From Pseudomonadota bacterium (GTDB taxonomy: Bacteria > Desulfobacterota > Desulfobulbia > Desulfobulbales > Desulfocapsaceae), in NCBI GenBank assembly GCA_018817385.1, contig JAHIUA010000023.1, positions 62,001 through 126,000 of the forward strand: 64,000 nt of DNA. Direction: 5' to 3'. The notes beneath the pieces are model-generated. The model had not been told where the DNA came from. It did no database searches and was given only the letters and a program-made list of their open reading frames with translations. This document shows positions 3,169 to 36,754 of this stretch, piece by piece. Position numbers and translations under genes: made by a program. Within the stretch, counting starts at the first letter, position 1. Each line of letters begins with the position of its first letter.

Positions 3169-3171
3169 AAT

Positions 3172-6759: not shown

Positions 6760-6775
6760 AATTTATTACTCCTTA

Positions 6776-6820
6776 CACGCATCATTCGAAAGTTCAGTTC
6801 CTTGTCGAATGATGCGTGTA
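6776..6820. repeat. Perfect inverted repeat, 15-bp arms, 15-nt loop
   Basis: ACACGCATCATTCGA (6776-6790) and TCGAATGATGCGTGT (6806-6820); lies just 5' of the helicase RBS/start. Confidence 0.9.
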
Positions 6821-6931
6821 AATTCCCAATCATAGGGTTTATGTGTTTTCTTCAGCAATCAAGCCAGCTATTCTGGAGGACAGATTATGTCGAATTTGTG
6901 GTTTGTAAAAATCAAGTTATTCCTTTTATAT

Positions 6932-7660
6932 CTACACCATACTAAGTTCAAGTTTATGTTTAATTTTCTCCCAACCTGGGATGACAGAGTCGAGAAGCTT
7001 ATAAAATTCTGAGCTATGATCATGATATTTCAGGTGACACAGCTCATGCGTAACAACATATTCAATGCATTCTTTAGGCGCTCTGATCAGGTCTGTATTG
7101 AGGGTCACCGTCCCTTTACCTGAAAGGCTGCCCCACCGTTTTTGCATTCGTTTAATGGATAGTTTAGGCTTGCCAATTCCGAGACCATTGAATTTCTGCC
7201 AACAGAGGTCCAAACTCTCAACAAATTGAATCTGCGCCTTTTTCAAATACCATTGATTTAAAAGTGTCTTGGCTATGTCAGGAGTCGGCTCACTCCGGCA
7301 AGTGATATTAAAAAATCCACGAGATAATTTGACAGAGTTTTCTGATCCCTGGGTTAACTTTAAACGATATTGCCTTCCAAGATACAGGTGAGTCTCACCG
7401 TTCACGTAACATCGATCAGGCGTCTTGGGATTAAACTGCTTGAAATAATTCAGCTGTTTAAGAATCCAGCGAGCTCTTTTAATGACCTTCTTGTCTATAA
7501 TTGCAATGTCTGATTGTACGGGCGCTTTGACAATAACGGTACTGTCAGGATGCACCGCAATTTCCATGGTTTTTCTGTTGCAATAGAACAGACTGAAATT
7601 AATGGACTTTCGACCATAAACAACTGAGTGTCTTTCGTTTTTGCTTATTGCCCCCATCAA
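6932..7660 (-). CDS. YgjP-like metal-dependent peptidase/hydrolase (DUF45)
   Basis: VVTHELCHLKYHDHSSEFY (HExxH-like) plus KRMQKRWGSLSGKGTVTLN; start overlaps hsdR stop by 4 bp. Confidence 0.85.
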   Translation of the reverse strand: MMGAISKNERHSVVYGRKSINFSLFYCNRKTMEIAVHPDSTVIVKAPVQSDIAIIDKKVIKRARWILKQLNYFKQFNPKTPDRCYVNGETHLYLGRQYRLKLTQGSENSVKLSRGFFNITCRSEPTPDIAKTLLNQWYLKKAQIQFVESLDLCWQKFNGLGIGKPKLSIKRMQKRWGSLSGKGTVTLNTDLIRAPKECIEYVVTHELCHLKYHDHSSEFYKLLDSVIPGWEKIKHKLELSMV

Positions 7661-10600
7661 TTATAGCTCCTGTGCTTTGCCACCTGCAGAACCTTTTCTA
7701 TTATTTCATCCATTTGATCCAATGATAGCTCAATGCCTTTTTCTGTTTTGAGCTCGTCGTATAGATAATCGTCAATTTCATTTGCTGTTTGGTTTTGTGC
7801 ATCTTCATCATCCCAGAAATGAACTTTTTTATGCGTCTCTAGGATGCTGTGGATGGCAATAGCCGTGTCAGCTGTAATGGTTTCAAGACCAGGTCCATTC
7901 AAATCATGTTTCTCAAGGAATGGCTTTAATACACCATAGTAAGCCATGGCGTCCTCTTTGCCGGTCAGCTGTTCTGGGATATCATCATGTACTTTTCCAA
8001 CGACCTTATTCCTGATATCCACAACCTTGCTCAGGTAGTCTAAATCAGAGATCCGCTTTGCCCTGAAATCTTCGATAGCTTGTTGGATAAGTTTTGAGAA
8101 TTTTTCATAAAACGCCGGATCTTCATCCATTTTTTCTGTAATTACTCTTTTAGTGGCATGGGCAATCGTATCGGCTTTTGACCCAGTGGACTTTTTTGTT
8201 TGGTATACTCCTTGCTCTTCTTTGACCTGATTGAACATCTTGTCGTCAAAAATATTTACAGGCTCATTGAGCTGAATTACCTCATTCGCTTGTATGTGCG
8301 TATCTAAAAGCTTTTTAATTTTTGGCTCATAATCCCTGTAGTCAATTGCCTCCGCATAGCGCAGTTTCACTGCAGCCTTAAGCAACATAAATTTGCGTAA
8401 ATCAGCCTTGTATCTTGATAATGTTTTGTCATCCGTTTCAGACAAAAAACGTTCAGAAGAAAGAGCAATCGCTAGGTTCTTACCAAACTCCGAAAGACGT
8501 CCGTAGAATTCTTCCCTGATTTCATCGTCTGCCAGTAGAACCTCATATGCTTCTTCATCATAGGAGTGTTTTACTGTCTTGAAAAGATCCCAAAGATCTG
8601 AGTGTCTTCCAGGGAGTTTTTCTATTTCACTGTTTATTGAGGTGAGTGTGCCAACAAGGTCAGATTCGTCAAACCCTTCAAACGCGCTGTACATGGTCAG
8701 GGCTTTATCTAATTCTCCGAGGACACTTGCGTAATCAACAATATAGCCAAATTCCTTCCCTTCAAACAGTCTGTTTACTCGTGCAATTGCCTGAAGAAGG
8801 GTATGCTCCTTTAAAACCCGGCATAAATACATAACAGCATTTCTGGGGGCATCAAAACCGGTTAAAAGTTTAGATACTACGATCAATATTTCAGGCTCGC
8901 TACCATGTTTAAACTGGTTGATAAGCTGTTTGGTGTATTCTTCTTCGTTACCATAGCGTTTCATCATTTTTAGCCAAAATTTCAACACGTCATCTGTTGT
9001 CTCATCATCGGTCTCATCGTATCCTTCACGCATATCCGGAGGAGAAATAACAACTTCTGAAGATACTATACCGATCTCGTCGAGATAAGAGTTGTATTTG
9101 AGGGCAGAAGCCTTGTTCGGGGCAACTAGTTGAGCTTTGAATCCAGTTCCCTGCCAATTGGAGCGGTAGTGCTCGCTGATATCGAAAGCCCTCATGTAGA
9201 TGACCTGATCTGCTTTGTTGAGCATTTCCGCCCGTGCGTACTTACGTTTCAGGTCCGCTTGTTGTTTTTTGGTAAGTCCCTGCGTATGACGTTCGAACCA
9301 CAAATCAACAGCTGATTGGTTCTGGGTCATTTCCACATGACGCCCTTCATAGAGGAGAGGAACTACGGCCCCGTCTTCTACAGCCTGGGTGATTGAATAA
9401 TGCGGCTCAATCAACTCACCAAATTTAGTGAAACTATTTTTTTCCTTTTTAAGTAGAGGAGTTCCGGTGAATCCCAAATAACAGGCATTGGGGAACATTT
9501 GTCTCATGCGGGCAGAGAATGATCCAAACTGAGTCCGATGACTTTCATCCACCAAAATAAAAATATCAGTTGATTCATCTTGGTACTTTTTTACTGCATA
9601 TGCTTTGTCGAATTTATGGATCAGCGTGGTGATGATCCCGGATTGCTTCTCGGCAACCAATTCCAGTAGATTGCGTCCTGAGCTGGCACGATTGGCCTCA
9701 AGATTACAGGCGGCAAAAGTATTGCCAAGCTGCTTATCCAAATCGTCCCTGTCTGTTACCAACACTATCCTGGGATTTAATATGTCAATATCCAAAGCAA
9801 GGTTTCTTGCTAGCATAACCATTGTTAGGGACTTCCCGGAACCTTGTGTGTGCCAGATAACACCTCCCTTACGGGCCCCAGTGTTGTCAAAGTGCTTCAG
9901 ACGGTTAAGAGTTGATTTTGTCACAAAATATTGCTGATAACGAGCCACCTTTTTTATGCCGCCATCAAAAACAGTAAATTTCCATGCCAGTTCCAATAAT
10001 CTCTCTGGTCGGCATAAAGAATACAGCGATTTGTCCTGCTCTGTAACAAGGCGATCTGCGTCTAAATATGCAGTAGTGGCATTAAGAGTGGTCGCAAGTT
10101 TGGAAATAATATCAGTGGGAAGGTGTGTGTTAACTAATTCCTGAAGTTTTCCGAAAGCGCTCTCTCCCGCGTCCATTTGAGGTTCTTTCCACATACCCCA
10201 GAATTTAGCCGCAGTTCCAGTTGTTGCATACTTGGCACTGTTTTTATTTATGGCGAGAACCAATTGTGTATAAATGAACAGTTTCGGTATGTGTTCATCA
10301 TTCTGGTTCCTGATGGATTGGGAAACAGCCTGTTCCACCTCAATCTGAGGAGCTTTGCACTCAATCACGCAAAAAGGAATACCATTGACAAACAAGACTA
10401 TATCCGGGCGAACAGTCTCTGTGCTTCTTGAACGTTCAACGCTATATTCAATGGTTACATGAAAGCGATTTCGCAGTGGATTGCGCCAGTCTATATAATT
10501 TAGAGAGAAACTCTTTGAGTCCCCTTCGATGGTCTGCGCCATCGCAGTCCCCAGCGTTAACAGGTCATAAACCGCTTCATTTGTTCTCAGCAATCCATCA

Positions 10601-10857
10601 TATTTGATATTTTTTAGCTTCTGGATGGCAGACTGTATGTTTTCTTCGCTAAAAAGGTACTCATTTCCCTTGTATCTAATGCGGTTAATAACTTTGAGCT
10701 GATTCCTCAGAATGTTTTCTAAGAGTACATTCGATGTCCTGCCCAGCCTTTCATCCAATGCCTCAGCAGGCGCAATATATTCAAAGCCCAGGCCAATAAG
10801 GAGCTGTAAGGCCGGAATTTGAGAAAGATGTTTTTCGTTAATTTGAAATTTGCTCAT
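7657..10857 (-). CDS. hsdR: Type I restriction endonuclease subunit R (HsdR)
   Basis: RPDIVLFVNGIPFCVIECK nuclease motif, GGVIWHTQGSGKSLTM, DESHRTQ, GFTGTPL, QAIARVNR. Confidence 0.95.
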   Translation of the reverse strand: MSKFQINEKHLSQIPALQLLIGLGFEYIAPAEALDERLGRTSNVLLENILRNQLKVINRIRYKGNEYLFSEENIQSAIQKLKNIKYDGLLRTNEAVYDLLTLGTAMAQTIEGDSKSFSLNYIDWRNPLRNRFHVTIEYSVERSRSTETVRPDIVLFVNGIPFCVIECKAPQIEVEQAVSQSIRNQNDEHIPKLFIYTQLVLAINKNSAKYATTGTAAKFWGMWKEPQMDAGESAFGKLQELVNTHLPTDIISKLATTLNATTAYLDADRLVTEQDKSLYSLCRPERLLELAWKFTVFDGGIKKVARYQQYFVTKSTLNRLKHFDNTGARKGGVIWHTQGSGKSLTMVMLARNLALDIDILNPRIVLVTDRDDLDKQLGNTFAACNLEANRASSGRNLLELVAEKQSGIITTLIHKFDKAYAVKKYQDESTDIFILVDESHRTQFGSFSARMRQMFPNACYLGFTGTPLLKKEKNSFTKFGELIEPHYSITQAVEDGAVVPLLYEGRHVEMTQNQSAVDLWFERHTQGLTKKQQADLKRKYARAEMLNKADQVIYMRAFDISEHYRSNWQGTGFKAQLVAPNKASALKYNSYLDEIGIVSSEVVISPPDMREGYDETDDETTDDVLKFWLKMMKRYGNEEEYTKQLINQFKHGSEPEILIVVSKLLTGFDAPRNAVMYLCRVLKEHTLLQAIARVNRLFEGKEFGYIVDYASVLGELDKALTMYSAFEGFDESDLVGTLTSINSEIEKLPGRHSDLWDLFKTVKHSYDEEAYEVLLADDEIREEFYGRLSEFGKNLAIALSSERFLSETDDKTLSRYKADLRKFMLLKAAVKLRYAEAIDYRDYEPKIKKLLDTHIQANEVIQLNEPVNIFDDKMFNQVKEEQGVYQTKKSTGSKADTIAHATKRVITEKMDEDPAFYEKFSKLIQQAIEDFRAKRISDLDYLSKVVDIRNKVVGKVHDDIPEQLTGKEDAMAYYGVLKPFLEKHDLNGPGLETITADTAIAIHSILETHKKVHFWDDEDAQNQTANEIDDYLYDELKTEKGIELSLDQMDEIIEKVLQVAKHRSYN

Positions 10858-10872
10858 ATATCCTCTCTTGCC

Positions 10873-11532
10873 CTAAATTCGGTTCCAGTCATTTAAGGCA
10901 TGTGCTTTGAACCACGAGACAGGTGCCATTTTTCTGAAATCATTTAACTTATGATGAAAAGAGCAAGCCCCAAGTCTATTACCGCATTCGCAGGGACAAG
11001 GTCTTTTGTTTGCTATTCGTTTTTTGACACCCAATAACTGAATAGCCTGTGTTATTTGGGCGCGTTCCGGTAGTCCAAGTAAGTGGGAATAGTCATCCAC
11101 GATGCCTTGCTCACCATGGGCTAATTCACCAAATACAAAGTCACCACCATTTCTCAATTTGTAAGAAATAGCATAGAGATATGGTACAAGGCATTTGCTA
11201 GCAAAACCGCTCAAGTCGGGAAAACTATGGACTTTTTTCAGAAGCCTGAGTGGAGATCCAAGGCATAGTGAACCATCTGGATTAACGTGGAAATTTCCGT
11301 CCTTTGGAATTTTCCCGCCCGTTTCTTTAACCTTTGGCAGTGCCTGAGGGAATTTTTCTGGCACGATGATTTCCAGTTTGTAGCTGTCTTCAATTTCTTC
11401 ACTGCCGGAAATATCAGCTTTGAAATGGAATTTGCCACGCAGGCATACACCAGCATTAAAGCATGGTGCTGTTGACATGCTAGGGTAATCATCCAGAAAT
11501 TGGTTCAAACATTTCAATACGTTTACTCCCAT
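10873..11532 (-). CDS. Prokaryotic E2-like protein with C-terminal Cys-rich segment
   Basis: E2-like YKLEIIVPEKFPQALPKVKETGG... and FHVNPDGSLCLGSP (candidate catalytic Cys); PCPCECGNRLGAC tail; next to a CD-NTase. Confidence 0.7.
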   Translation of the reverse strand: MGVNVLKCLNQFLDDYPSMSTAPCFNAGVCLRGKFHFKADISGSEEIEDSYKLEIIVPEKFPQALPKVKETGGKIPKDGNFHVNPDGSLCLGSPLRLLKKVHSFPDLSGFASKCLVPYLYAISYKLRNGGDFVFGELAHGEQGIVDDYSHLLGLPERAQITQAIQLLGVKKRIANKRPCPCECGNRLGACSFHHKLNDFRKMAPVSWFKAHALNDWNRI

Positions 11533-11536
11533 TTAT

Positions 11537-12730
11537 CTACCATCGCCAAGGTCTGGCTGAGTCTTGTCGGTCAATGGTGTGAGTCTTAGGAGTTATGATG
11601 TTAACTGTGGCTGCACTGACACCCAGCTGTTTCTCCAGCTCTGACTGGTTTACACGCAATGAAAACTTTTCGTTCATCTGATCACAAAGAAATTCTGTAT
11701 TTGTCGTAGAAGTAAGATGCTGGAAGTCTTTTTTTGCCTGCAGAAGCCATGCATTGAAGTTTTCCTCAAGCCTTAGATGTAAACAATCACTCCTGTACCA
11801 GCGGTCTGCAAAGTCTTCGTTCGGGTCAACAGGATTGGGAACTCGTGGCTTGGCAGTATTGACGAGGCCTCCCATTTTTTCCAACACATTCCCCAAAGCA
11901 GCGACAATATCGATTTCACCGCTATAGGCTCTCGCAGCAAGTGTTGTGATAATGATAGAGATCGGTTTGGAGTCAGGATTATCCTTACACCAATTGTCTC
12001 TATGCCGTTTCATAAGTTGAATCACACGCTGCAACGGTGTCTTTTTCTTAAACAAAGGCACATCATCAACTTGAGCCTTTTCCAGAAGGATTCTGGTTTG
12101 TTGCGGATTCATCCTGTATTCAAACCATTTTGCATAGCCTTCCGGGTTGCTTATATTCCAGTTACTGCAAATATTCGTAAAGCCTTCATGACGATCATCA
12201 GTAATCGAAACCGTTGTCTGGGAAGCAGCCCCCGCAACGAAGTCATCTAATCCAGTTTTGCGCAGAGATTCCAGAATAGTCTTGCGTCCCACTTCATCTG
12301 CCGGTATGCAGGGAACAATATCCATGTGAAAACTGAGGTCATCTTGATACTCAAGACGCCAGCAGCGATGCTTAGGCTCAAGCTCTTTTTTAATGCCCCG
12401 TCCCTTCCGGTAGGCCTCAAGCTCAATCCCGATAACCTTTTTCAGGGATTCTTGTGTATGGCTGTCCTTGTCTATACCGTCTCGGAGTTTGCAAGCAAGG
12501 TCGAGGTCGTACTCCTCGCTCTCGTCAAGAGGCCGAATGGCTGTACCAAGACGGAAGGAGCCCTGCGGGAAAATATGTGGGTTGTTAGCTGATACAGCAG
12601 ACTCTTTACGGTCGAACCACTCTCCAAGATCTTCGTACCTTTTACGTGCTTTATCATAGGCTGAATCAGGGAGCTCCAGCAGTTTGATCATGTTTTCGAT
12701 AATGACTTTCTTTTGTTCGTTGGTTATCAT
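11537..12730 (-). CDS. CD-NTase (CBASS-type nucleotidyltransferase) 1
   Basis: FPQGSFRLGTAIRPLDESEEYDLDLACKL nucleotidyltransferase signature; adjacent HNH-SAVED and E2-like genes. Confidence 0.85.
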   Translation of the reverse strand: MITNEQKKVIIENMIKLLELPDSAYDKARKRYEDLGEWFDRKESAVSANNPHIFPQGSFRLGTAIRPLDESEEYDLDLACKLRDGIDKDSHTQESLKKVIGIELEAYRKGRGIKKELEPKHRCWRLEYQDDLSFHMDIVPCIPADEVGRKTILESLRKTGLDDFVAGAASQTTVSITDDRHEGFTNICSNWNISNPEGYAKWFEYRMNPQQTRILLEKAQVDDVPLFKKKTPLQRVIQLMKRHRDNWCKDNPDSKPISIIITTLAARAYSGEIDIVAALGNVLEKMGGLVNTAKPRVPNPVDPNEDFADRWYRSDCLHLRLEENFNAWLLQAKKDFQHLTSTTNTEFLCDQMNEKFSLRVNQSELEKQLGVSAATVNIITPKTHTIDRQDSARPWRW

Positions 12731-13899
12731 TGGCTGTCTCCTATGGTTATTGCTTTTATAAATTTACCTTCTTTGTAGTTTTGGTCATAAATGACCCACG
12801 GCATATCTGCTTTCGGCATTCTTACTCTACCCATTTCAATGGAACAGGAGATAGCCATAGCTGGGAAAACCGAAAGAGGTGTTGTTGAACCATGGGCCTC
12901 TTTAATCAAAACCATGATCTTACGTATAATTGTTCTCATCATCGAAAGTTGTGCCTTTGAGCGAATGGTGTCGTTACCAATGTAACGTTCGGGAGCAGTC
13001 AGTTCCCATATCGATACATTTTCGCCAATGACCGTTTTTATTCGCTCAAAGCCGATGAAGTCGCTTAGCGAAATAACAAGTGCCGGATCGCCGGATAGCT
13101 CCCTGGGTTTTTTTATGACAAACTCAAAGCCTTCTGGAAAATCTTGCCAATGCCAGCCTTTGGGCTCTCTGATGGGCTGGTAGGTATCGACGGAAATCTT
13201 ATCCGTAAAAAGAGATCCCAACTGAATCAGCAGTGGAATGGGAGCCATAGAGAACAGCGAGAAATGTTTGGTCGGATCGGTTTCAATCAAGGGCAATACT
13301 TTCTGATCAAATGCCCGATTCAAATGTGCGGATTCCGATTCCCAGAAAGCTGCACTCTTATCTTCATGGGAGCAGGTCATTGAAAGGCAAACTGAGTTTT
13401 CTGAAACAGGATATCGCTCTGGAAACATTGCTTCCATGGCATCTTCCGGCTGTAGTGGCGATCTTTGTTCTCCGATATTACTACCATAAAGGACCACATG
13501 AGATTTTCTGTTGGCTGCAATGCCAGTAACTGTAACCACACGGTGCTCATGTTCTTTTTTCCATTTTTTGAGCAATAATGCAGAGTATTTGAGACCTTCC
13601 TTATCCTGATCGATTGTTTTGTGGCAGTCATGACACATCAGCATTAAGTTTCCAACATCATTCAGGCTCTGTGGGTTTGTCTTGAACGGTCCCCAGCCGC
13701 GTGGTCCCTCTTCAGAAAAGGAATAGATGTGCGCCTTCTCTGAGATGTTGACCCGCTCTTGGGTGACCGGAGACTTGTAGAGTATGCGGTTACACCCGTT
13801 AAATTGGCACCTTCCAGCAGCCCGAGCCCACAGTTCCCTTTCCACTTCTTTTTTAATATATCTGGTGACTTCTTTTGGTTTGTTCTCAGCCATATTCAA
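12727..13899 (-). CDS. HNH endonuclease-SAVED effector (Cap5-like)
   Basis: N-terminal HNH (GRCQFNGCNRIL...AHIYSFSEEGPRG...LNDVGNLMLMCHDCHKTID); C-terminal SAVED-like region; 4-bp overlap with CD-NTase 1. Confidence 0.82.
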   Translation of the reverse strand: MNMAENKPKEVTRYIKKEVERELWARAAGRCQFNGCNRILYKSPVTQERVNISEKAHIYSFSEEGPRGWGPFKTNPQSLNDVGNLMLMCHDCHKTIDQDKEGLKYSALLLKKWKKEHEHRVVTVTGIAANRKSHVVLYGSNIGEQRSPLQPEDAMEAMFPERYPVSENSVCLSMTCSHEDKSAAFWESESAHLNRAFDQKVLPLIETDPTKHFSLFSMAPIPLLIQLGSLFTDKISVDTYQPIREPKGWHWQDFPEGFEFVIKKPRELSGDPALVISLSDFIGFERIKTVIGENVSIWELTAPERYIGNDTIRSKAQLSMMRTIIRKIMVLIKEAHGSTTPLSVFPAMAISCSIEMGRVRMPKADMPWVIYDQNYKEGKFIKAITIGDSQ

Positions 13900-15449
13900 A
13901 CGACCCTCACTATAAATTCACCGCTACGTGCTACGCACATACTGTTTTTTACAATGAAGCACTCAACCCAATGAACACCGGTGTAAGCAGTCGCTTCTTT
14001 TTGGGTTAGGCCGCCAACACCAGCTGTTGTTGATGGACGAATTTGCCCTCGTAGTTGACCCCAATTTTCAGCCTCCTCCCCAGTGTTCACCACTTGCCAG
14101 AAAACCTGAAAAGGAGACTGAACATTAGTTGTGGCAGTAAACAGAAGATCCACCTTCTTCTTTAGAGGATCACCCGATTGAAAGCTTTCCCAGCTCCTGT
14201 AATTTTTGAACTTTGCAGTTATTTTGGCAGAAAGTACCAGGCTGATAGGCCAGCAAGGTTTTTCTCTATGCGGCACATTGAAGACCAATGCCCTGATTGT
14301 TGAGGTGGTTAGTGCTCTATTCGCTTCATCGAAACCTAAAGCGTTGATATAGTGGCTTTCATTCAGGCTTTCGGCGATATTTGTAAAATCATCTTTGACC
14401 CATGTTACCCATTTAAAAAAAGCCTTTGCTCTTGCATGATTGTCTTCGTGCCACTTGTCGGCAAAATTTTCGCCATAGTTTGTCGGGTTGGGGATATTCC
14501 AGGTTCCATCAGCTCTTCGTGTAATCAAGGTATATGACGAGTTAGCAATGGCTTCATCGAAACGAAACGTCGGCTGCATCTGGTCGGCATGTCTGGAGAA
14601 GGTATCGACCAGGTTGCCCAGTGTCTCATAGATAGTTGATTCATTTCGATAGGCCTGCGTTGCTAAAACAGTGATAATCATCGAAATTGGTTTGTATTTT
14701 TCATTTTCATGATGACAGAATCGCACATCTCGATGTCTTTTAAGTAACTGAATAGCTCTCTGCAAAGATGTTTTTACGTGGATGTTTGGAATAGAGTCTC
14801 TGTCTGTAAAGAGCCCGTCTTGCCTGTAGCTTTCGAATAGAAGCTGTTTTTGATCCAGTTTGACACTGTCAAAGGTGGCTTTGTTTTTATCGTAAAACCA
14901 TTCTGCAAAATCTTTGGGATTACTGGTTGTCCAATTATACGAATTATCTTCACTGTTTTGGTTAGTTACCGCAATTGCACTGCGATGCCAATAATGGTCA
15001 CTGAAGGTATTCCATTCCTCCTGCACTGATGGCAAGATATCCATATGAAAGCCAATACCATCTTGCTCAGCATAATTCAGGGTCCAGCATCTTTTACCCT
15101 CGTCATCCAGCATCTTTGAGTACGTGCCGTGCTCTTTCAAATGATCTCCAACCTGATGCTTTACGACATCTGCGGTGGTCTTTTCCTTTTCGTGCTCGAG
15201 CCGGCAAACGATATCAATGTCATAGTCAGCGTCCTTGCTGTCTTTATATGGGCGGATTTCAGTGCCAAGTTTAAAAGAGCCCTGTAGGTAAATTTCCGGC
15301 TGGCCGGTCGCATCCTGGTATTCACCTTCCGTCAGGTAAGTCTGTATGGATTGAAAACGTTCTATTGCCTGCCTGTACTTGGATGGTGATATATCCAGTT
15401 TTGATGCTGCATTAAGCAGAGCCTCCTCACGAGAAATGATATTACTCAC
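13896..15449 (-). CDS. CD-NTase 2 with AGS-C-like C-terminal sensor domain
   Basis: YLQGSFKLGTEIRPYKDSKDADYDIDIVCRLE; C-terminal FQVFWQVVNTGEEAENWGQLRGQI...TAYTGVHWVECFIVKNSMCVARS resembles AGS-C. Confidence 0.85.
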   Translation of the reverse strand: MSNIISREEALLNAASKLDISPSKYRQAIERFQSIQTYLTEGEYQDATGQPEIYLQGSFKLGTEIRPYKDSKDADYDIDIVCRLEHEKEKTTADVVKHQVGDHLKEHGTYSKMLDDEGKRCWTLNYAEQDGIGFHMDILPSVQEEWNTFSDHYWHRSAIAVTNQNSEDNSYNWTTSNPKDFAEWFYDKNKATFDSVKLDQKQLLFESYRQDGLFTDRDSIPNIHVKTSLQRAIQLLKRHRDVRFCHHENEKYKPISMIITVLATQAYRNESTIYETLGNLVDTFSRHADQMQPTFRFDEAIANSSYTLITRRADGTWNIPNPTNYGENFADKWHEDNHARAKAFFKWVTWVKDDFTNIAESLNESHYINALGFDEANRALTTSTIRALVFNVPHREKPCWPISLVLSAKITAKFKNYRSWESFQSGDPLKKKVDLLFTATTNVQSPFQVFWQVVNTGEEAENWGQLRGQIRPSTTAGVGGLTQKEATAYTGVHWVECFIVKNSMCVARSGEFIVRVV

Positions 15450-16377
15450 CTGTAGATCTCTCCTTCACAATAAATTCCCGGATTGCTTCAGAATGGTGTG
15501 TGAAGTCATGATCCGCTTTGGTTAGTAAATCATCAATTGTTGACACATCATCCATCGGCAATGGTAAATCTGTTTCGAAATCAATCCGTTTTATCTGCTC
15601 AAGGCGAAGTTGAAGCCGCAAGTAATTCATGGCACTTTGACTCTGCAATGACAGAATGAAGTTGATAAACTCTTTTTGCTTCCAGCCGGTTGCTAATCCC
15701 CAGCTGCGCGACATATCTGTGCCGTACATTGTTTTGGAATGCCCGGTGCCGATAGTCAGTATCTGAATATCGTCTTGATTGACTCCAAGACGTTTCTGGG
15801 CATCGATCACTGCAGTCAAGGCGGGGTTGTTTGCCCAAAGCCCACCATCAGCAAGGAGATAATGGTCAAGCTTGTGTGGATCGAAATATGTTGGTGCAGA
15901 GCAGGAGGCCAATACTGCATCTTTGACCAGAACGTTATTGTCTCGAGTGAATTCTTTCGAGTAGCCTGATTTCAAAACATGAACACATCCGTTGCCGATA
16001 TCGGTCGACGGAATGAGGAGTGGTTTCTCTATTTCACCCAATCGCTTTTCTTGAAAAACACCTTCCAGCACAGTCTTCAAGCAGTGTGAGTTGTAGACAC
16101 TGCTTAGCATCGGCTGAATTTTACTAGGCACGAATTTTTTCTTTTTCTCAAAAATTCCGGCTCCGTGCTCGCTGTACATTTCGACAATATGAGCAGCGGG
16201 CACACCGGTAGCAATTCCGGCTGCGATAATAGAGCCGGTGCTTGTCCCAGCGATCATATCGAAAGATTCGTACAGATCAACTTGAAGGCGTTCTTCAATA
16301 CAGCGAAGGATATGGGCTGGATATATACCGCGAATCCCGCCACCATCAATGCTCAATATTTTGAAAGTTTTTCCCAT
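15442..16377 (-). CDS. capV: Patatin-like phospholipase (CapV-like CBASS effector)
   Basis: LSIDGGGIRGIYPAHIL, GTSTGS (GxSxG), DGGLWANNP (DGG) patatin motifs; overlaps CD-NTase 2. Confidence 0.88.
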   Translation of the reverse strand: MGKTFKILSIDGGGIRGIYPAHILRCIEERLQVDLYESFDMIAGTSTGSIIAAGIATGVPAAHIVEMYSEHGAGIFEKKKKFVPSKIQPMLSSVYNSHCLKTVLEGVFQEKRLGEIEKPLLIPSTDIGNGCVHVLKSGYSKEFTRDNNVLVKDAVLASCSAPTYFDPHKLDHYLLADGGLWANNPALTAVIDAQKRLGVNQDDIQILTIGTGHSKTMYGTDMSRSWGLATGWKQKEFINFILSLQSQSAMNYLRLQLRLEQIKRIDFETDLPLPMDDVSTIDDLLTKADHDFTHHSEAIREFIVKERSTGE

Positions 16378-16386
16378 TCATTCTCC

Positions 16387-16620
16387 TTAGTTGTTATCTT
16401 TTGGTGGACACGGATCGTTACCATAGCTGTTGCCCGCTCGTATTTTTCCGTCCTGTCCATGGATTTTGGTCTCTGACTTTTGGTTCCTAGCAATATTCTG
16501 TGCCACTTCTATGGCTTGTGCCTGCGTCTGGGTCACTTTGGTTGCCTTGCTGTTGCCAGCGCCTTTAACCGCCCAGCCTTCTGGATGTTTTACAACATGT
16601 TGATTTTTACCCTTTGCCAT
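16387..16620 (-). CDS. DUF2188-like small protein
   Basis: QHVVKHPEGWAVKGAGNSKATKVTQTQAQAIEVAQNIARNQKSETKIHGQDGKIRAGNSYGNDPCPPKDNN; resembles the ORF at 34100. Confidence 0.75.
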   Translation of the reverse strand: MAKGKNQHVVKHPEGWAVKGAGNSKATKVTQTQAQAIEVAQNIARNQKSETKIHGQDGKIRAGNSYGNDPCPPKDNN

Positions 16621-16622
16621 AA

Positions 16623-17873
16623 TTAAGCCTCCTTGTATTTATTTAGGATTTCTGGTTTTGCCCGCCACGTACCGGTGAGCATTCTTTGCATTAGGCCACG
16701 CTTCTGGGTTTTGTATTTATCCGCCAAAACTTTCATCAGATCGATTTCCTGCCGGGCGGCTGATAAGGTTTCGGCTATTTGCTGTTGATCATTTATGTTG
16801 TCAGGTATGAGGATATCCAATAATAAAAAGGCGTCTAGTTTTACAGCCATGCGCTCAATTAACGTTCCCTCTGTTTTGGTAGCATAAATCCCAATTTGCC
16901 GAGGGCAGGTTAAAAGGTGCGTTAAGAAATCAACATCAACTGCATTGCTATTAATCTTAAGAACTTCGTATATAGGTGAAATTAAGACATTATGATTAAC
17001 CTCAGAGCGTGCTATTGCTCCCCAGCGGAGATTTGCTGGGTTGAAAGCAATATCGTTCGGAAAAACAATTTTGTATTTTTTATTGTTTGTATCTTTTACT
17101 AAAGCTTGACGGTTGTATCTGTCTGTTTTTTCGGTGATTCCGTCTTCAATGGTTAACGAGTACAAGGGGCATGCTTCCGTTGGTATTGACCTTTTGTTTC
17201 TTGACGTAAGCAAGCTACCTATTTTTACTTTTTTCCAATGAGAATTTAGTGAACTTCTTGGAACAAAAAATTTTTGATAAAGCGCATTTAAATGTTTTTT
17301 CTTTGCTTGAATAATTCGGCCTGTTTTCTCGATAGCCTCATCCCAGGTGGAAAGCAAATCGGCAATGGCTTTTTGTTCCGAATAAGGTGGTAAAATAATA
17401 GGAATTTTTTCTACCACTTTTTTGTTAATTTTAACCATGGTATTGCTGGTACCTGAAGCACAGCTTTGGATGTACTTTCTTACTTGCGGACTTCTTAGGT
17501 AACTTTCCAAATACTCCCTGTACACTTGATTTTCGTCTACACGAAATCTTATTAGCAGATCTGGATATGAGCAATTTTCAATCTCATCTCGAAAAAGCAT
17601 TGTTCGTCCAACTTTATCCAATGTATTTGATCGGCTTATTAGAAAATCACCGAATTCTAAAAGAAAATCTTTAACTCTAGCATCATCTATTGGAGCAGGT
17701 TTAGCTTGAGTCGGGTCAAATCCATTTTCAGTTAAGTTCCCCAAACTTAAAATCCAATTTCCATTCGATTTTTCGGGACAATTTGGAGAGTAGCCATTCT
17801 TGAAATCTTTATTTACGAGTTTTTTGAGCATTGTTTGTTTCCAGCCGACGGGAAGTTCGTATCTTTGCTTCAT
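16623..17873 (-). CDS. hsdS: Type I R-M specificity subunit HsdS, two TRDs
   Basis: Two TRD/coiled-coil repeats: IILPPYSEQKAIADLLSTWDEAIEKT and LIPDNINDQQQIAETLSAARQEI. Confidence 0.93.
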   Translation of the reverse strand: MKQRYELPVGWKQTMLKKLVNKDFKNGYSPNCPEKSNGNWILSLGNLTENGFDPTQAKPAPIDDARVKDFLLEFGDFLISRSNTLDKVGRTMLFRDEIENCSYPDLLIRFRVDENQVYREYLESYLRSPQVRKYIQSCASGTSNTMVKINKKVVEKIPIILPPYSEQKAIADLLSTWDEAIEKTGRIIQAKKKHLNALYQKFFVPRSSLNSHWKKVKIGSLLTSRNKRSIPTEACPLYSLTIEDGITEKTDRYNRQALVKDTNNKKYKIVFPNDIAFNPANLRWGAIARSEVNHNVLISPIYEVLKINSNAVDVDFLTHLLTCPRQIGIYATKTEGTLIERMAVKLDAFLLLDILIPDNINDQQQIAETLSAARQEIDLMKVLADKYKTQKRGLMQRMLTGTWRAKPEILNKYKEA

Positions 17874-19438
17874 CGCTGAATCCCCTTGAGCTTGTCGGAC
17901 ATCCTCGCCCGCACATCAATCAGCTCTTTTTCCAATTCCTCAATTTCCAGCTGTACGGCATCTATATCGATCTCCCCTTCTTCTTCAAAGGTATCCACAT
18001 AGCGGGGTATATTGAGGTTGAAGTCGTTTTCTTTGATCTCTTCGTAGTCGGCGATATGTGCATATTTTTCCACTTCGGAACGAGTGGTGTAGGTTTTCAT
18101 TATTTTTTCCAGATGATCTTCCGAAAGGGTGTTCTGTTTTTTGTCTAATATAAATTCCCGGCTGGCTTCCACAAAAATGACATTTTTGCAAGATTCTTTC
18201 GCTCCGCCTTTTTCTCGAGCTCGGTCAAACACCAAAATGGCCACCGGGATATTAGTGGTTGGGAAGAGGTTGCCCGGAAGTCCGATCACAGCATCAAGGA
18301 GGTTTTCCTCAATCATTTTTTCGCGGATTCGCCCTTCGGCAGCTCCACGAAAAAGAACCCCGTTTGGAACAACCACTGCAACACGCCCATTTTTTTCCAG
18401 AGCAATCTCTACCATGTGACTTATAAACGCCCAGTCACCCTTGCTCTTAGGAGGGACGCCTCGCCAGAAACGGTTGTACCGATCGCTCTCAGCACTTTCC
18501 GCACCCCATTTGTCTAGAGAAAATGGAGGATTAGCCACAACGCAGTTGAATTTCATCAGGCGGTCATTTTCCACCAGAAGCGGACTGTTTAGGGTGTCGC
18601 ACCATTCCACCCGGGCACTGTCAAAACTGTGCAAGAACATATTCATGCGACAGAGGGCCCAAGTACTGCCGTTGGATTCTTGGCCGAACAGGGCAAAATT
18701 GCGGTCGCCGACCTGTTTTGCCGCCTGAATCAAAAGGCCACCAGAGCCACAAGCAGGGTCGCAGATACGGTCACCAGGTTTTGGCCCAGCAAGTTTGGCT
18801 ACCAGTTCTGTTACCTTCAGTGGGGTAAAGAACTCTCCAGCCTTTTTGCCTGAATCTGAGGCAAAACGTTCAATCAAATAGATATAGGTGCTGCCAATTA
18901 CATCTTCTGAAACGAGACTGGGTTTCATGTTGAGCTGTGGTTTGTGGAAATCCTCCAGCAGCTGCTTTAAACGACGGTTGCGATCTTTGGTTTTGCCGAG
19001 GTTGGCCTCGCTGTTGAAGTCGATATTACGGAAAACCCCTTCGAGCTTACTCTTGTTTGACTCCTCTATGTGGTCGAGGACGATATTGATCAGTTCGCCG
19101 ATGTTGGCGGTCGGACTACGTTCGTAAAGGCTGTAATAGGTTGCAGGAAACTCATCCAGAATAGTAACTTTACCTGTCTTCTCATCTTTTTCGGTTAATT
19201 TAACAACTGGGAGAACAAAACGTTCCCTTTCCAGCTTGCGTCGGATGCGGGCATCGTCATCTCCATACTGTTTTTGATATGTTTCATAATGATCCTGCCA
19301 TACATCAGAGATATATTTTAAAAACAACATCACAAGGATATAGTCTTTGTACTGTGCCGGATCAACAACTCCTCTAAAGGTGTCACACGCTGCCCATGCT
19401 GCGTTGTTGATGTCTCTTTGATCAATCTTGCTGCTCAT
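17870..19438 (-). CDS. hsdM: Type I R-M DNA methyltransferase HsdM
   Basis: SDSGKKAGEFFTPLKVTELVAKL, DPACGSGGLLIQA, CVVANPPFS (NPPF). Confidence 0.96.
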   Translation of the reverse strand: MSSKIDQRDINNAAWAACDTFRGVVDPAQYKDYILVMLFLKYISDVWQDHYETYQKQYGDDDARIRRKLERERFVLPVVKLTEKDEKTGKVTILDEFPATYYSLYERSPTANIGELINIVLDHIEESNKSKLEGVFRNIDFNSEANLGKTKDRNRRLKQLLEDFHKPQLNMKPSLVSEDVIGSTYIYLIERFASDSGKKAGEFFTPLKVTELVAKLAGPKPGDRICDPACGSGGLLIQAAKQVGDRNFALFGQESNGSTWALCRMNMFLHSFDSARVEWCDTLNSPLLVENDRLMKFNCVVANPPFSLDKWGAESAESDRYNRFWRGVPPKSKGDWAFISHMVEIALEKNGRVAVVVPNGVLFRGAAEGRIREKMIEENLLDAVIGLPGNLFPTTNIPVAILVFDRAREKGGAKESCKNVIFVEASREFILDKKQNTLSEDHLEKIMKTYTTRSEVEKYAHIADYEEIKENDFNLNIPRYVDTFEEEGEIDIDAVQLEIEELEKELIDVRARMSDKLKGIQR

Positions 19439-19441
19439 TCT

Positions 19442-20020
19442 TTACTCTCCTTTTGCAAACCGCATTAATACTGTTGAAATATATTGCTCCCGCTTTTCAG
19501 CCAGCGTGCTCAATAAGCTTTGTTCCCGAGCGGATAGTGAGGCCAGCTCGACAATATTCTTTTGTTGTTCCAGGGTGGGAAGGAAAACCTCGAGATCTTC
19601 GATGGCTTGCTTGCTGATCATCTTTTGGACCGTCCCTTTAGCTCTGCTTGTCAAAAATATCTGTGCATCCCTCTGGCTGATATACCAGTTCAGGTATTCC
19701 GGCAGAATTTTGTTTAATTTTGTAACTCTGATTCTCAGTAGAGGAGCAGTCACAACAGCTTTGCCTGGATCTTCCATAAGAATTGCTGCAGTAGTAACCT
19801 GACCTCTCGACCTGAACACTAGGTCTCCTTTTCGTGCCAAATGGCGGTCTTTGACAGCGTCCATGTCTATTTTTACGAATTCACTACAGTCGACAGTGTT
19901 GTTGTGAAGTAGGTCTTTCATTTGGATAACTGCAACCTTGCCACCTGCTGAGGCTTCAAGGCGTGACCTGAATGAGTATCCTGTTTGCACTGTTGCCAAT
20001 TTTTTTATGTTCACTTTCAT
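19442..20020 (-). CDS. HsdS-like half-subunit (single TRD)
   Basis: 192 aa, LATVQTGYSFRSR... and LEVFLPTLEQQKNIVELASLSAREQSLL; first gene of the operon. Confidence 0.8.
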   Translation of the reverse strand: MKVNIKKLATVQTGYSFRSRLEASAGGKVAVIQMKDLLHNNTVDCSEFVKIDMDAVKDRHLARKGDLVFRSRGQVTTAAILMEDPGKAVVTAPLLRIRVTKLNKILPEYLNWYISQRDAQIFLTSRAKGTVQKMISKQAIEDLEVFLPTLEQQKNIVELASLSAREQSLLSTLAEKREQYISTVLMRFAKGE

Positions 20021-32800: not shown

Positions 32801-33883
32801 CTATTTGTGCTCAAGCTGTAGTAAAGTAACAGTAATGCCAAATCTTGGGTCAAGCATTGACTCTTCGACCACCTTGATCCCTGCAGGAATGTCTTTAAAC
32901 CAAATGCTTCCTTCAACAACGCCGCTCCTTGATTCTTTTGACGTAGGAGGATCTACGATAAAAGAATACGCTATTGACCCCTCTGTTACATCATCAACAA
33001 GTTTGTAAGGGAAACCTTTATCATAAGTTCTGGTGAAAGCTGTTTTGTCTGATGTGATGTATACGGCTCTTGAGCCATAGTGTTCTGAATATTTATGCGC
33101 AAGGGCTGTCATAGAACATCTATATTTTTCGCGTGCAAATTTTTCAAATATTTCAATAGAAGGATCTATTTTCTTGAAATCGTTTTTTACTAGCAATCCA
33201 GGCAACATTAATTCTCCTGCGAATTGTCTAGCTTCTATCTCAAGTTTATCTTCATTATCCAGAGACCTTTTGTCCTCCGATCTATAAAAAGTATGCTTTA
33301 AATGCCAAGGTATTAGCAAATGACCTAACATGATAGCGACTGTAAATTTTTCTCTTTCTTGATGGGGATTGTTGGAATCTAATAATATAAGTGGAGTGTC
33401 AGGGTTTTTATAGAGAATGGCTTCACAGTCTTTAAGTTCCGCTCTGACAAACTTCACTCCAAAATTTTCCGCAATCTGAAAAACATCAACAGGAGTATCT
33501 TTAATATTAAGTTCTTGAATGAAAAACTGCGCATATTCAGTTGGAGATGAAAAGAAGGGGGTTTCCCTGTAATGCTTAGAGCCCGAAAGGAGAAAGATAT
33601 AATCAATAACTTTCTTTTTTTTGTCAGTGTCCAAGAAGGGAGTAATGGCGTGGAGTAATTTGTCTAATGGATCACTGCTGGTCGTGGATTCTCCGCTTAA
33701 CAAGGACTCAATTGAGGCTTGTAATTCGTGAGCGATCTTTATCATTAGGCCATATGATGGGTTTCGACTGCCACCCTCAATCTGGCTGACAAATGCTGTT
33801 GAAACCCCCACCGCACCAGCCAAAGCCGCCTGTGTTAACTTCTGGGCCTTTCTTTTTTTCGCAATCCTTTTGCCAATTGTCAT
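32801..33883 (-). CDS. XRE-family HTH protein fused to an ImmA/IrrE-like domain
   Basis: N-terminal HTH (KLTQAALAGAVGVSTAFVSQIEGGSRNPS); C-terminal REKFTVAIMLGHLLIP...EIEARQFAGELMLP aligns to the ImmA core. Confidence 0.85.
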   Translation of the reverse strand: MTIGKRIAKKRKAQKLTQAALAGAVGVSTAFVSQIEGGSRNPSYGLMIKIAHELQASIESLLSGESTTSSDPLDKLLHAITPFLDTDKKKKVIDYIFLLSGSKHYRETPFFSSPTEYAQFFIQELNIKDTPVDVFQIAENFGVKFVRAELKDCEAILYKNPDTPLILLDSNNPHQEREKFTVAIMLGHLLIPWHLKHTFYRSEDKRSLDNEDKLEIEARQFAGELMLPGLLVKNDFKKIDPSIEIFEKFAREKYRCSMTALAHKYSEHYGSRAVYITSDKTAFTRTYDKGFPYKLVDDVTEGSIAYSFIVDPPTSKESRSGVVEGSIWFKDIPAGIKVVEESMLDPRFGITVTLLQLEHK

Positions 33884-34099: not shown

Positions 34100-34333
34100 G
34101 TGAAAAGAAAAGAGCATCATGTGGTGCCCAATTCGAAAGGTGGGTGGGATGTGAGAAGGAACGGAGCAGAGAGAGCGTCGATCCATACTGACATAAAACA
34201 GTACGCCATCGATCGCGGGCGAGTGGTTAGCCGGAATCAGGGGACAGAGTTCATAATTCATAATCATGATGGAAGAATCTCAAATTCTGATAGTCATGGT
34301 AATGATCCTTGTCCTCCTAGAGACAAAAAATAA
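34100..34333 (+). CDS. DUF2188-like small protein (GTG start)
   Basis: AAGGAG RBS before GTG at 34100; HHVVPNSKGGWDVRRNGAERASIHTDIKQYAIDRGRVVSRNQGTEFIIHNHDGRISNSDSHGNDPCPPRDKK. Confidence 0.75.
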   Translation: MKRKEHHVVPNSKGGWDVRRNGAERASIHTDIKQYAIDRGRVVSRNQGTEFIIHNHDGRISNSDSHGNDPCPPRDKK

Positions 34334-34350
34334 AAACATGGAGAGTTAAA

Positions 34351-34521
34351 ATGTCACAAGACAACAACAATTCTGAAAATCATGCTAGCCCTGCTACACC
34401 AGCAAACCCTAATTGTCCCAGTCAGCCAGCCACCCCGGCAACTCCTGCAGGGCCTCCGCCAAACCCAGGTAATCGTCCACCAAATCCACCAAATCCCGGC
34501 GGTGGTAGGCAGGTTGGGTAA
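34351..34521 (+). CDS. 56-aa Pro/Asn-rich Gly-terminated small protein
   Basis: ATG at 34351 after GGAGAG RBS; MSQDNNNSENHASPATPANPNCPSQPATPATPAGPPPNPGNRPPNPPNPGGGRQVG; stop TAA overlaps ATG of the E2-E1 gene (TAATG). Not in ORF track. Confidence 0.72.
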   Translation: MSQDNNNSENHASPATPANPNCPSQPATPATPAGPPPNPGNRPPNPPNPGGGRQVG

Positions 34522-36305
34522 TGGTCTGGTGGAATAGATACCCAGAGGAGCTGGAACGTGAAATCCATGCACTTGAAGTTGCGGGTATGCAACCGCAAAA
34601 GAATGAGGCGAAGTTTAAAGAGGGTAAAGCGGAAATAGGCATCCGTTTGAAGGTCCTGGGTAGTGAGAGAGATGCTTCTATTGTCTACCCGGACTTATAT
34701 CCCTACTTCAGACCGACCCTTTTTGTCCCTGGTTTGGGAACAACTCTACGTCATTACAATCCACACGTTGGCGAAGTCTGTCTTTTGCAGCGAGGTACCC
34801 AATATTGGTTGCCAGAAATGACTGCAGCGGGGCATATAGGTGAAATGTTGCCACATTGGGAACAAGCTGCTGTTAGACATTATGAAGATTCTCGCCTGGC
34901 AGTAGAGGATGAGCAAGCTGAACCTGCTACATCCTATTACCCTACAGAAAAAACTCAATCCGTGATGTTGGATAGTTCATGGCGCCTGCCAAAGGCGATC
35001 AGTTCTGGCCACATCAAAATTGTTTTTCCTAAAGGACATAAGAGCATCACTCAAGGAGAGTCTTTTGCTGCCTGGGTGACTGAGATTATTGGGGATGACA
35101 AGAAAGTCATTGAAGGAGTAAGTTTTACAAAACCCATTAAGAGGTGGGTAAGGGCACAAGGATATACAGAGTGTAAGTATCCGTGGTTAAGGCTCGAAGC
35201 CCCGCCGATTTGCAGTACCTTACAGGAACTTATTGAGAAGTTGGTATCTTCAGATCCTAAGGTCAAAAGACATATTAATCATCAACGATCCTTAAGTAAA
35301 AATGGACTTTATGGGTTCTGTTTCCCAGAGGAAGCTCCTGGAGGAGGACTACGAGACGGTTGGTTGTTCCTTGCTTATCATTGTAATAAAGGAACAAAAC
35401 GGAGAGGAGGGTCACCAGTGTCAGGTTCATATTTCTGGCTTGTTGGGCCAGATTATGCTGGGGAAAAGGACCTGTTTGAGCGAGTGCCTGAGTTACACCC
35501 TCTTCGTGACAAGACTGTTGCAATTATAGGGCTTGGGTGTGTTGGTGCGCCAAGTGCGTTGGCATTTGCACGTGCAGGAATTCGAGAACTGAGGTTGCTA
35601 GATGGTGACAGTGTTACCGCTGGAACGACCTGCCGCTGGCCTCAAGGCCTAGCTTCTGCAGGCGCAGGAAAAGTCAGAGAATTGGCCAGATATATTTCTC
35701 AAAATCACCCCTTAACGAAAATTGGAACAGGCCACTATCCATACGGTAGCAAAAAAGACTGTATGGTAAGACTCGGCGATACCAGCAGTGACTACGATCA
35801 ATGGGACTGCCTTGAAAAATGGCTTGAAGATGTTGATCTCGTTTACGATGCGACAGCAGAACAAGGTATAAATCTTCTACTCAACGACATGGTAATTGCA
35901 AGAGGAATCCCATATGTAACCGTGTCTTCGCGTGCTGGGGGCTGGGGTGGAAATGTGGTGAGGGTTAGACCGAATAGTGACAAAGGATGCTATCATTGCT
36001 ACCTATATTCTCTTCAGGATGAACAAATCGCACAACCGTCATACGATCCTTGTGGTGATGGCTTGCAGCCAGTTGGGTGCGGGGATATAACTTTTAAAGC
36101 TGCTGGTTTTGATGTGGAAGAAGTTGCTTTAGCCGGTGTGAGGATGGCTGTTTCAACACTTACTGAAGGGGCTACTAGTGGTTACCCACCGATTGTACAC
36201 GACGTAGCTGTTCTCTCTTTACGAAAAGATGGAATGGCAATATTTCCCGAATGGCAAAGTTTTCATCTTTCAAAACATCCCAACTGTGGGATATGCAATC
36301 GATGA
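34521..36305 (+). CDS. E2-E1 (ThiF/UBA-type) fusion, Cap2-like
   Basis: E2-like HYNPHVGEVCLL; E1-like KTVAIIGLGCVGAPSALAFARAGIRELRLLDGD...GTTCRWPQG...VDLVYDATAEQGINLLLND; GCYHC. Confidence 0.88.
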   Translation: MVWWNRYPEELEREIHALEVAGMQPQKNEAKFKEGKAEIGIRLKVLGSERDASIVYPDLYPYFRPTLFVPGLGTTLRHYNPHVGEVCLLQRGTQYWLPEMTAAGHIGEMLPHWEQAAVRHYEDSRLAVEDEQAEPATSYYPTEKTQSVMLDSSWRLPKAISSGHIKIVFPKGHKSITQGESFAAWVTEIIGDDKKVIEGVSFTKPIKRWVRAQGYTECKYPWLRLEAPPICSTLQELIEKLVSSDPKVKRHINHQRSLSKNGLYGFCFPEEAPGGGLRDGWLFLAYHCNKGTKRRGGSPVSGSYFWLVGPDYAGEKDLFERVPELHPLRDKTVAIIGLGCVGAPSALAFARAGIRELRLLDGDSVTAGTTCRWPQGLASAGAGKVRELARYISQNHPLTKIGTGHYPYGSKKDCMVRLGDTSSDYDQWDCLEKWLEDVDLVYDATAEQGINLLLNDMVIARGIPYVTVSSRAGGWGGNVVRVRPNSDKGCYHCYLYSLQDEQIAQPSYDPCGDGLQPVGCGDITFKAAGFDVEEVALAGVRMAVSTLTEGATSGYPPIVHDVAVLSLRKDGMAIFPEWQSFHLSKHPNCGICNR

Positions 36306-36754
36306 AACAAGCTTGGATCTTAAGTGGTGTGCTTGATCAGATTCGAAATGAAGCGGAGAGTAAGACCCCTCTTGAGACTGGGGGGCTTTTGCTTGGGTAC
36401 TGGTCAGCAGACAATAACAATGTTGTAATCACCGACATGGTTGGGCCAGGCCCTTTGGCTAAACATCGAAAGTTTACATATAAGCCTGATTACAGCTTCC
36501 ATCAACAGGAGATGAAAAGAATTTTTAACGAAAATGGAGGGATGAGTACGTACTTGGGAGATTGGCATTCCCACCCTATTATGTTAGTTTTGGGAGGTAC
36601 AGATAAGGACGATTTCACCGAATGGACACCAGAGATTTGGATGATATCTCCTCAACTGAGTATTTTCCCTTGGCTTAGATGGGATTATGTTTCTCTTAAA
36701 GTAAATATGTTCGATCAATTGTGCTGTTCAAAAAAAAGTAGCCACTTTGTTTAA
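36302..36754 (+). CDS. JAB/MPN (JAMM) isopeptidase-like, Cap3-like
   Basis: PLETGGLLLGYW...YLGDWHSHPIMLVLGGTDKDDF; ATG at 36302 overlaps E2-E1 stop (ATGA), so start is later than the listed 36251. Confidence 0.82.
   Translation: MKQAWILSGVLDQIRNEAESKTPLETGGLLLGYWSADNNNVVITDMVGPGPLAKHRKFTYKPDYSFHQQEMKRIFNENGGMSTYLGDWHSHPIMLVLGGTDKDDFTEWTPEIWMISPQLSIFPWLRWDYVSLKVNMFDQLCCSKKSSHFV

Follow-up and report, generated by a model that had tools for sequence, protein, structure and literature searches.

A short proline-rich peptide as the candidate modifier of a bacterial Cap2-like E2-E1 and JAB operon

The modifiers handled by E1 and E2 enzymes are thought of as beta-grasp proteins, with the cyclases of CBASS as the known exception, and the modifiers of the Bub systems are beta-grasp as well. 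Pup and UBact are small intrinsically disordered protein modifiers; they are attached by PafA, a relative of glutamine synthetase, not by E1 and E2 enzymes, and no JAB protein takes part. In the MccB-MccA system of microcin C7 there is neither an E2 nor a JAB, and the product is a free nucleotide-peptide. In type II CBASS, the conjugated protein is the CD-NTase, which is encoded just upstream of the E2-E1 and is activated at a C-terminal Gly or Ala (Jenson 2023, PMC10097602), and the substrates of Cap2, the CBASS cyclases, follow this Gly/Ala C-terminal rule (PMC10097602). Bub operons are often controlled by CapH together with CapP (PMC13373217), and the BilA modifier has beta-grasp domains (PMC11354881). 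Iyer, Burroughs and Aravind (2006) defined an operon type 6c with NGR234 as its prototype; according to the accessible part of that paper, it combines an E2 + E1 multidomain protein with a JAB protein, and a protein predicted to bind metal and an E2 in which Cys replaces His belong to the same type (PMC1779556).

The operon considered here lies in a 64,000-nucleotide stretch of DNA, called the window below. The earlier note on this DNA had read it as DUF2188, a 56-aa Pro-rich peptide, E2-E1 and JAB, in this order. All four open reading frames are present on the plus strand where they had been placed, and the two overlaps, TAATG between peptide and E2-E1 and ATGA between E2-E1 and JAB, are as described. 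The features of the locus are the following.

32801-33883, minus strand: divergent HTH-Peptidase_M78 regulator (PF01381, 2.8e-11; PF06114, 6.5e-11; PADLOC capP, 2e-35, and capH, 3.8e-6)
34100-34333, plus strand: DUF2188 protein (PDC-S16) with a GTG start (PF09954, 7.8e-19; PADLOC PDLC04941, 7.1e-34)
34351-34521, plus strand: 56-aa Pro-rich peptide MSQDNNNSENHASPATPANPNCPSQPATPATPAGPPPNPGNRPPNPPNPGGGRQVG, ending GGGRQVG, the candidate modifier (homologues in the same slot in 51 of 55 loci)
34507-34518, plus strand: C-terminal RQVG of the peptide, the predicted activated end (G56 codon 34516-34518; terminal R-P/Q-V-G conserved)
34521-36305, plus strand: fused E2-E1 of 594 aa, Cap2-like (ThiF PF00899, 6e-17; AlphaFold2 model; PDB match 7TO3)
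34779-34781, plus strand: codon of the E2 catalytic Cys87, in HYNPHVGEVCLL (invariant in 31 sequences)
36078-36080, plus strand: codon of the predicted E1 catalytic Cys520, in PVGCGDITF (invariant in 31 sequences)
36302-36754, plus strand: JAB/JAMM protein with a 28-codon in-frame deletion (Prok-JAB, 2.2e-8; gap relative to the Geotalea locus L044 and relatives)
36566-36580, plus strand: junction of the JAB deletion, HSHP fused to IMLVLG (the Geotalea counterpart reads HTHPASRSYLSWLDKRALRNIAAFPGNYMNNPIMLVLG)

The divergent regulator resembles CapH and CapP joined in one chain and is the probable controller of the operon. An orthologue with 60% identity stands at the same place in Geotalea L044; related regulators lie near L056, L061 and L066, and weakly related ones near L049, L055 and L063. 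No effector gene (phospholipase, nuclease or membrane protein) was found inside the operon, and no CD-NTase between 32.8 and 37.3 kb of the window. The earlier statement that no CD-NTase is encoded here therefore holds for the operon and fails for the window, where two CD-NTases (11537-15449) belong to a separate CBASS locus. The window as a whole is a defence island of type I R-M, CBASS and E2-E1 operon, adjoining F-type conjugation genes, and includes these further features.

3172-20020, minus strand: type I R-M genes enclosing the CBASS cluster (HsdR 7657-10857, HsdM 17870-19438)
3172-6759, minus strand: DrmD-like helicase beside the type I R-M genes
10873-16620, minus strand: CBASS cluster of DUF2188, patatin phospholipase, 517-aa CD-NTase, HNH-SAVED nuclease, 397-aa CD-NTase and a stand-alone E2

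Two cyclases and two effectors thus stand together in this CBASS cluster. By analogy, the defence island, the CapH/CapP-like regulator and the enzyme relatives that act in CBASS suggest that the operon may serve in defence. When the neighbours of related loci were clustered, no target or effector gene common to them appeared, which makes a host or phage protein the probable target.

Relatives were sought by E2-E1 homology alone in kin genomes, in plasmids and in one genome per bacterial species; the same search in viral contigs gave none. In 51 of the 55 E2-E1 loci, a Pro/Gly/His-rich peptide of 35-70 aa is encoded just upstream, mostly ending R-P/Q-V-G. The loci span Thermodesulfobacteriota, Chloroflexota, Bacteroidota, Pseudomonadota, Actinomycetota, Planctomycetota and KSB1, and at least seven bacterial phyla have the peptide/E2-E1 pair. 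The outcome that the earlier note had named as fatal to its reading, namely homologous operons without the 56-aa frame or its C-terminal Gly, did not occur; the same 51 loci keep both. The four exceptions are of different kinds: L029 has KDREVG with no stop after it; in L074 (Bradyrhizobium valentinum, 2137-4059) VG is lost and the peptide frame continues into E2-E1 as one reading frame, probably through a frameshift mutation; and L068 and L069 have no intact E2. On average, Pro makes up 36% and Gly 14% of the peptides, and aromatic residues are nearly absent. A Pfam search of the 56-aa peptide gave no match, and it is probably disordered.

The C-terminus is conserved: of 44 distinct peptides, 38 have Arg at -4 and 37 have Pro or Gln at -3. 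Typical tails are ...PPKDRPVGQQ in Hymenobacter, ...PSHRPVG in NGR234, ...PPGPRPVG in Arthrobacter, ...KPRQVG in Azospirillum and ...PNPGGGRQVG in Geotalea. Some tails extend 1-4 residues beyond the Gly (QQ, Q, R, QG, LL, LN, and RACL after YG), the last being ...RPRRYGRACL of G286, from the phylum of the window. In later E2-E1 homology searches, new Hymenobacteraceae copies ended in VG, VGLL or VGLN, while some other matches there repeat earlier species. The residues after the Gly vary freely and those before it are fixed, which is the pattern predicted by JAB trimming. The actinobacterial locus L125 reads (HPDKPD)n...HRPVA; its terminal Ala matches the Gly/Ala rule of the CBASS cyclases. Long HPE/HPD repeats (EHPEHPEHP...) occur in the peptides of L024, L065, L073, L125 and L088, and such peptides might bind metal. 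Loci L022 and L024 are located among heavy-metal resistance genes. The NGR234 plasmid has two peptide/E2-E1/JAB copies (L025, and L135 at 249500-256500), with tails HRPVG and PPKHVG. The peptide of the first is missing from the PLSDB gene list, and that of the second coincides with no listed gene as far as checked.

In 31 E2-E1 sequences, H78, P81 and C87 of the E2 half are invariant, as are the GxGxxG motif (G337, G339, G342), R372, K384, D443, C520 and T524 of the E1 half. The adenylation-site residues, the E1 Cys and the E2 Cys that characterize E1/E2-type conjugation are thus all conserved, and the protein has the Cap2-like layout of type II CBASS with a catalytic Cys in each of its two domains. 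C490/C493 and C589 are probable zinc ligands. The AlphaFold2 model (pLDDT 80.4) has Cap2 (7TO3, E=1e-20) as its best full-length PDB match, with modest TM-scores to Cap2 of 0.46-0.48, as expected of a flexible multidomain chain. ThiF, Bub E1, MoeB and MccB follow, and PaaA is also among the matches. The PADLOC CBASS models matched the E1 domain only. In a tree of the peptide-bearing E2-E1s and CBASS Cap2, branches are long and some forks weak, so that strict monophyly is not established.

We compared what fills the slot upstream of E2-E1 in other loci. No such peptide was found in 8 control E1 loci, nor a Pro-rich VG peptide in any of 18 control loci; where the controls are of type II CBASS, the CD-NTase gene stands directly before E2-E1. 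Three sister loci carry other proteins at this place: a SMODS CD-NTase in L124, with a Pro-rich tail QPPQPPPGYPSVPQQPPRSRWYG ending RSRWYG; an MBL-fold protein in L123, ending PPAAPPPGFERTPQRGPRRDRYAG (DRYAG); and an acidic protein of about 105 aa in L126, ending GHPAPVG. In two Hymenobacter loci (L031/L032), the Pro-rich VG tail is fused to a tandem DUF1508. Since these slot proteins have Pro-rich, Gly-ended tails, the peptide looks like such an activated tail made free-standing, which is the simplest reading of these sequences. Locus L027 (G082) has a SMODS CD-NTase (PF18144, 3.4e-38) and a membrane protein after the JAB (4075-4860, minus strand, and upstream); the ends of two contigs each carry part of its E2-E1 gene.

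A JAB gene is found in nearly all related loci, and the relatives' JABs keep YLGDWH[ST]HP......S..D. The JAB gene of the window is present with its overlap, as the earlier note had it, but it is not intact: HSHP runs straight into IMLVLG, and the 28 codons, 84 nt in all, missing between them read ASRSYLSWLDKRALRNIAAFPGNYMNNP in Geotalea. Because of this deletion, the Ser and Asp of the JAMM signature E...HxH...S-x-x-D are gone; the signature is intact in 56 of 64 JABs scanned, and the window copy is not among these. The window JAB is therefore probably dead if the deletion, as read from the assembly, belongs to the living genome and is not an assembly error. For the window peptide, with its terminal Gly in place, trimming is unnecessary, and conjugation could therefore continue in the absence of the JAB. 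The JAB genes of L052, L075, L125 and L121 look truncated, stopped or displaced, and the peptide is kept in these loci. With the window JAB probably dead and those of L052, L075 and L125 apparently broken, reversibility would not be universal.

We consider it likely that the operon is a minimal ubiquitin-like conjugation pathway, in which the modifier is the short disordered Pro-rich peptide and the Cap2-like E2-E1 activates it. The E1 half would adenylate the C-terminal Gly of the peptide and form a thioester on Cys520; from there the peptide would move to Cys87 in the E2 half of the chain and finally onto an amino group, probably that of a lysine, on a target encoded outside the operon. Peptides carrying residues beyond the Gly would be trimmed by the JAB, which would also remove the tag. 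At the window locus the peptide has its terminal Gly from the start and the JAB has lost its active site, so that conjugates would be formed here without being removed by this JAB. Control of the operon during stress or phage attack probably falls to the HTH-M78 protein. With somewhat less confidence, we favour the broader view that such peptides form a widespread new class of modifier, short, disordered and Pro-rich, neither beta-grasp nor Pup, which would be conjugated via a C-terminal V-G by Cap2-like E2-E1 enzymes and matured by JAB, and would probably correspond to the conjugated tail of CBASS cyclases and MBL proteins, set free as a protein of its own.

Several other explanations were weighed. 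A frame of such low complexity and small size, which most of the public records consulted leave unannotated (only one of six plasmid records in PLSDB has the peptide gene) and which is closely coupled to E2-E1, could be spurious or a mere translational-coupling leader. We scanned for [RKG]xVG within 4 residues of the stop combined with 8 or more Pro among the final 40 residues. In the window, this pattern occurs in one of 1,169 open frames of at least 30 codons, which is the 56-aa peptide. In 53 related loci, 49 frames match, and all of them occupy the position directly before E2-E1; among the remaining roughly 9,300 open frames there is no match. Since VG belonged to the search rule, the fair figures are the 51 of 55 loci and the 49 slot matches against 0 of about 9,300. 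Substitutions between homologous peptides fall mostly at the third codon position (5064/4833/15310, a ratio that protein-level alignment favours somewhat). We rejected a spurious frame on the third-position bias and this specificity. A programmed-frameshift leader was also rejected, because the spacing (usually -4 to +10 nt from the E2-E1 start) and the frame relative to E2-E1 vary between loci, which makes the peptide a separate protein. With C-terminal amino acids conserved across phyla and the tail fused to DUF1508 elsewhere, we give these explanations hardly any credence. The DUF2188 protein had been named beside the peptide as a candidate modifier, and it might be one, or the folded half of one with the peptide as detachable tail; it adjoins the peptide in three loci, and the fusion of the tail to DUF1508 in L031/L032 offers a precedent. 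However, those three are the only ones among the 55: the window, Geotalea L044 (76%) and Pimelobacter L071 (43%). It matches PF09954 with 68 bits against a curated cut-off of 22. Its C-terminus is not Gly; it also opens the CBASS cluster of the window at 16387 and occurs elsewhere in the same genome; and its model (pLDDT 74.6) has no confident PDB match. Its relatives in viral contigs are without the operon. We therefore rejected DUF2188, with the modifier role seeming quite improbable for it, and kept the peptide, whose candidacy is strongly supported by its place in the operon, its final Gly, the overhangs and its occurrence in many phyla. YegP is the DUF1508 protein of E. coli. Fifty-seven cases are reported in which YegP genes follow CapK-CapS regulators of immune operons (PMC13373217), and we take such small proteins, DUF2188 among them, as recurrent accessories of defence operons.

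The E2-E1 might instead conjugate the CD-NTases of the CBASS locus in trans, with the peptide as adaptor or regulator, given that two cyclases are encoded at 11537-15449 and the enzyme is Cap2-like. Both cyclases, however, end ...RVV and ...WRW, not Gly or Ala, the CBASS cluster has its own E2, and the Gly-ended peptide persists where no CD-NTase adjoins the operon, which makes this very improbable. MccB shows that a peptide can be the substrate of an E1-like enzyme and yet not be conjugated, which we count against our main reading. In the same way, the peptide could be what the E1 half modifies, as in the action of MccB on MccA or of PaaA in pantocin synthesis, giving a small ribosomal natural product, with E2 and JAB adapted for tailoring; the MccB and PaaA structures among the fold matches and the short, repetitive peptide are consistent with this. 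On the other hand, the E2 is fused and has an invariant His and Cys, a JAB gene accompanies nearly all loci, no transporter or immunity gene recurs among the neighbours, and in sister loci the slot is taken by complete CD-NTase or MBL proteins whose tails are equivalent. A natural product is therefore unlikely, and a conjugated peptide remains our preferred reading.

If the peptide is conjugated, a bare disordered peptide could serve as a tag, and the E1/E2/JAB machine would need only a C-terminal tail. CBASS conjugation would be linked to a stand-alone modifier, a very small and possibly useful tagging system would be at hand, and a gene that many bacteria carry mostly without annotation, with two copies on the Rhizobium NGR234 plasmid, would gain a likely function. 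A search of the accessible literature gave no description of such a Pro-rich peptide modifier, although this does not prove that none exists. The enzymes are already known as type 6c (the E2-E1 and JAB of NGR234), as far as the accessible part of that source goes, and the modifier appears to be new.

In comparison with type 6c, the two E2-E1 loci found on the NGR234 plasmid are both members of the present family, each with its peptide; in the accessible part of the 2006 paper, no Pro-rich peptide is described, and its 6c locus is not matched there to either copy. With Bub/Bil (BilABCD), the locus shares an operon of E1, E2, modifier and deconjugase, and the fold search also matched Bub E1 structures, but the Pro-rich peptide lacks the beta-grasp fold of those modifiers. 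It resembles Pup and UBact as a small, disordered modifier, and MccB-MccA as an E1-like enzyme with a short disordered peptide, MccB being among the fold matches. Type II CBASS with Cap2 and Cap3 is alike in several points: a fused E2-E1 is followed by a JAB, there is no beta-grasp protein, the regulator is CapH/CapP-like, and the protein encoded before E2-E1 has a Gly or Ala terminus (the window has RQVG, 51 of 55 loci have VG and L125 has VA). Unlike type II CBASS, the operon has neither CD-NTase nor effector, and its slot holds a stand-alone disordered Pro-rich peptide.
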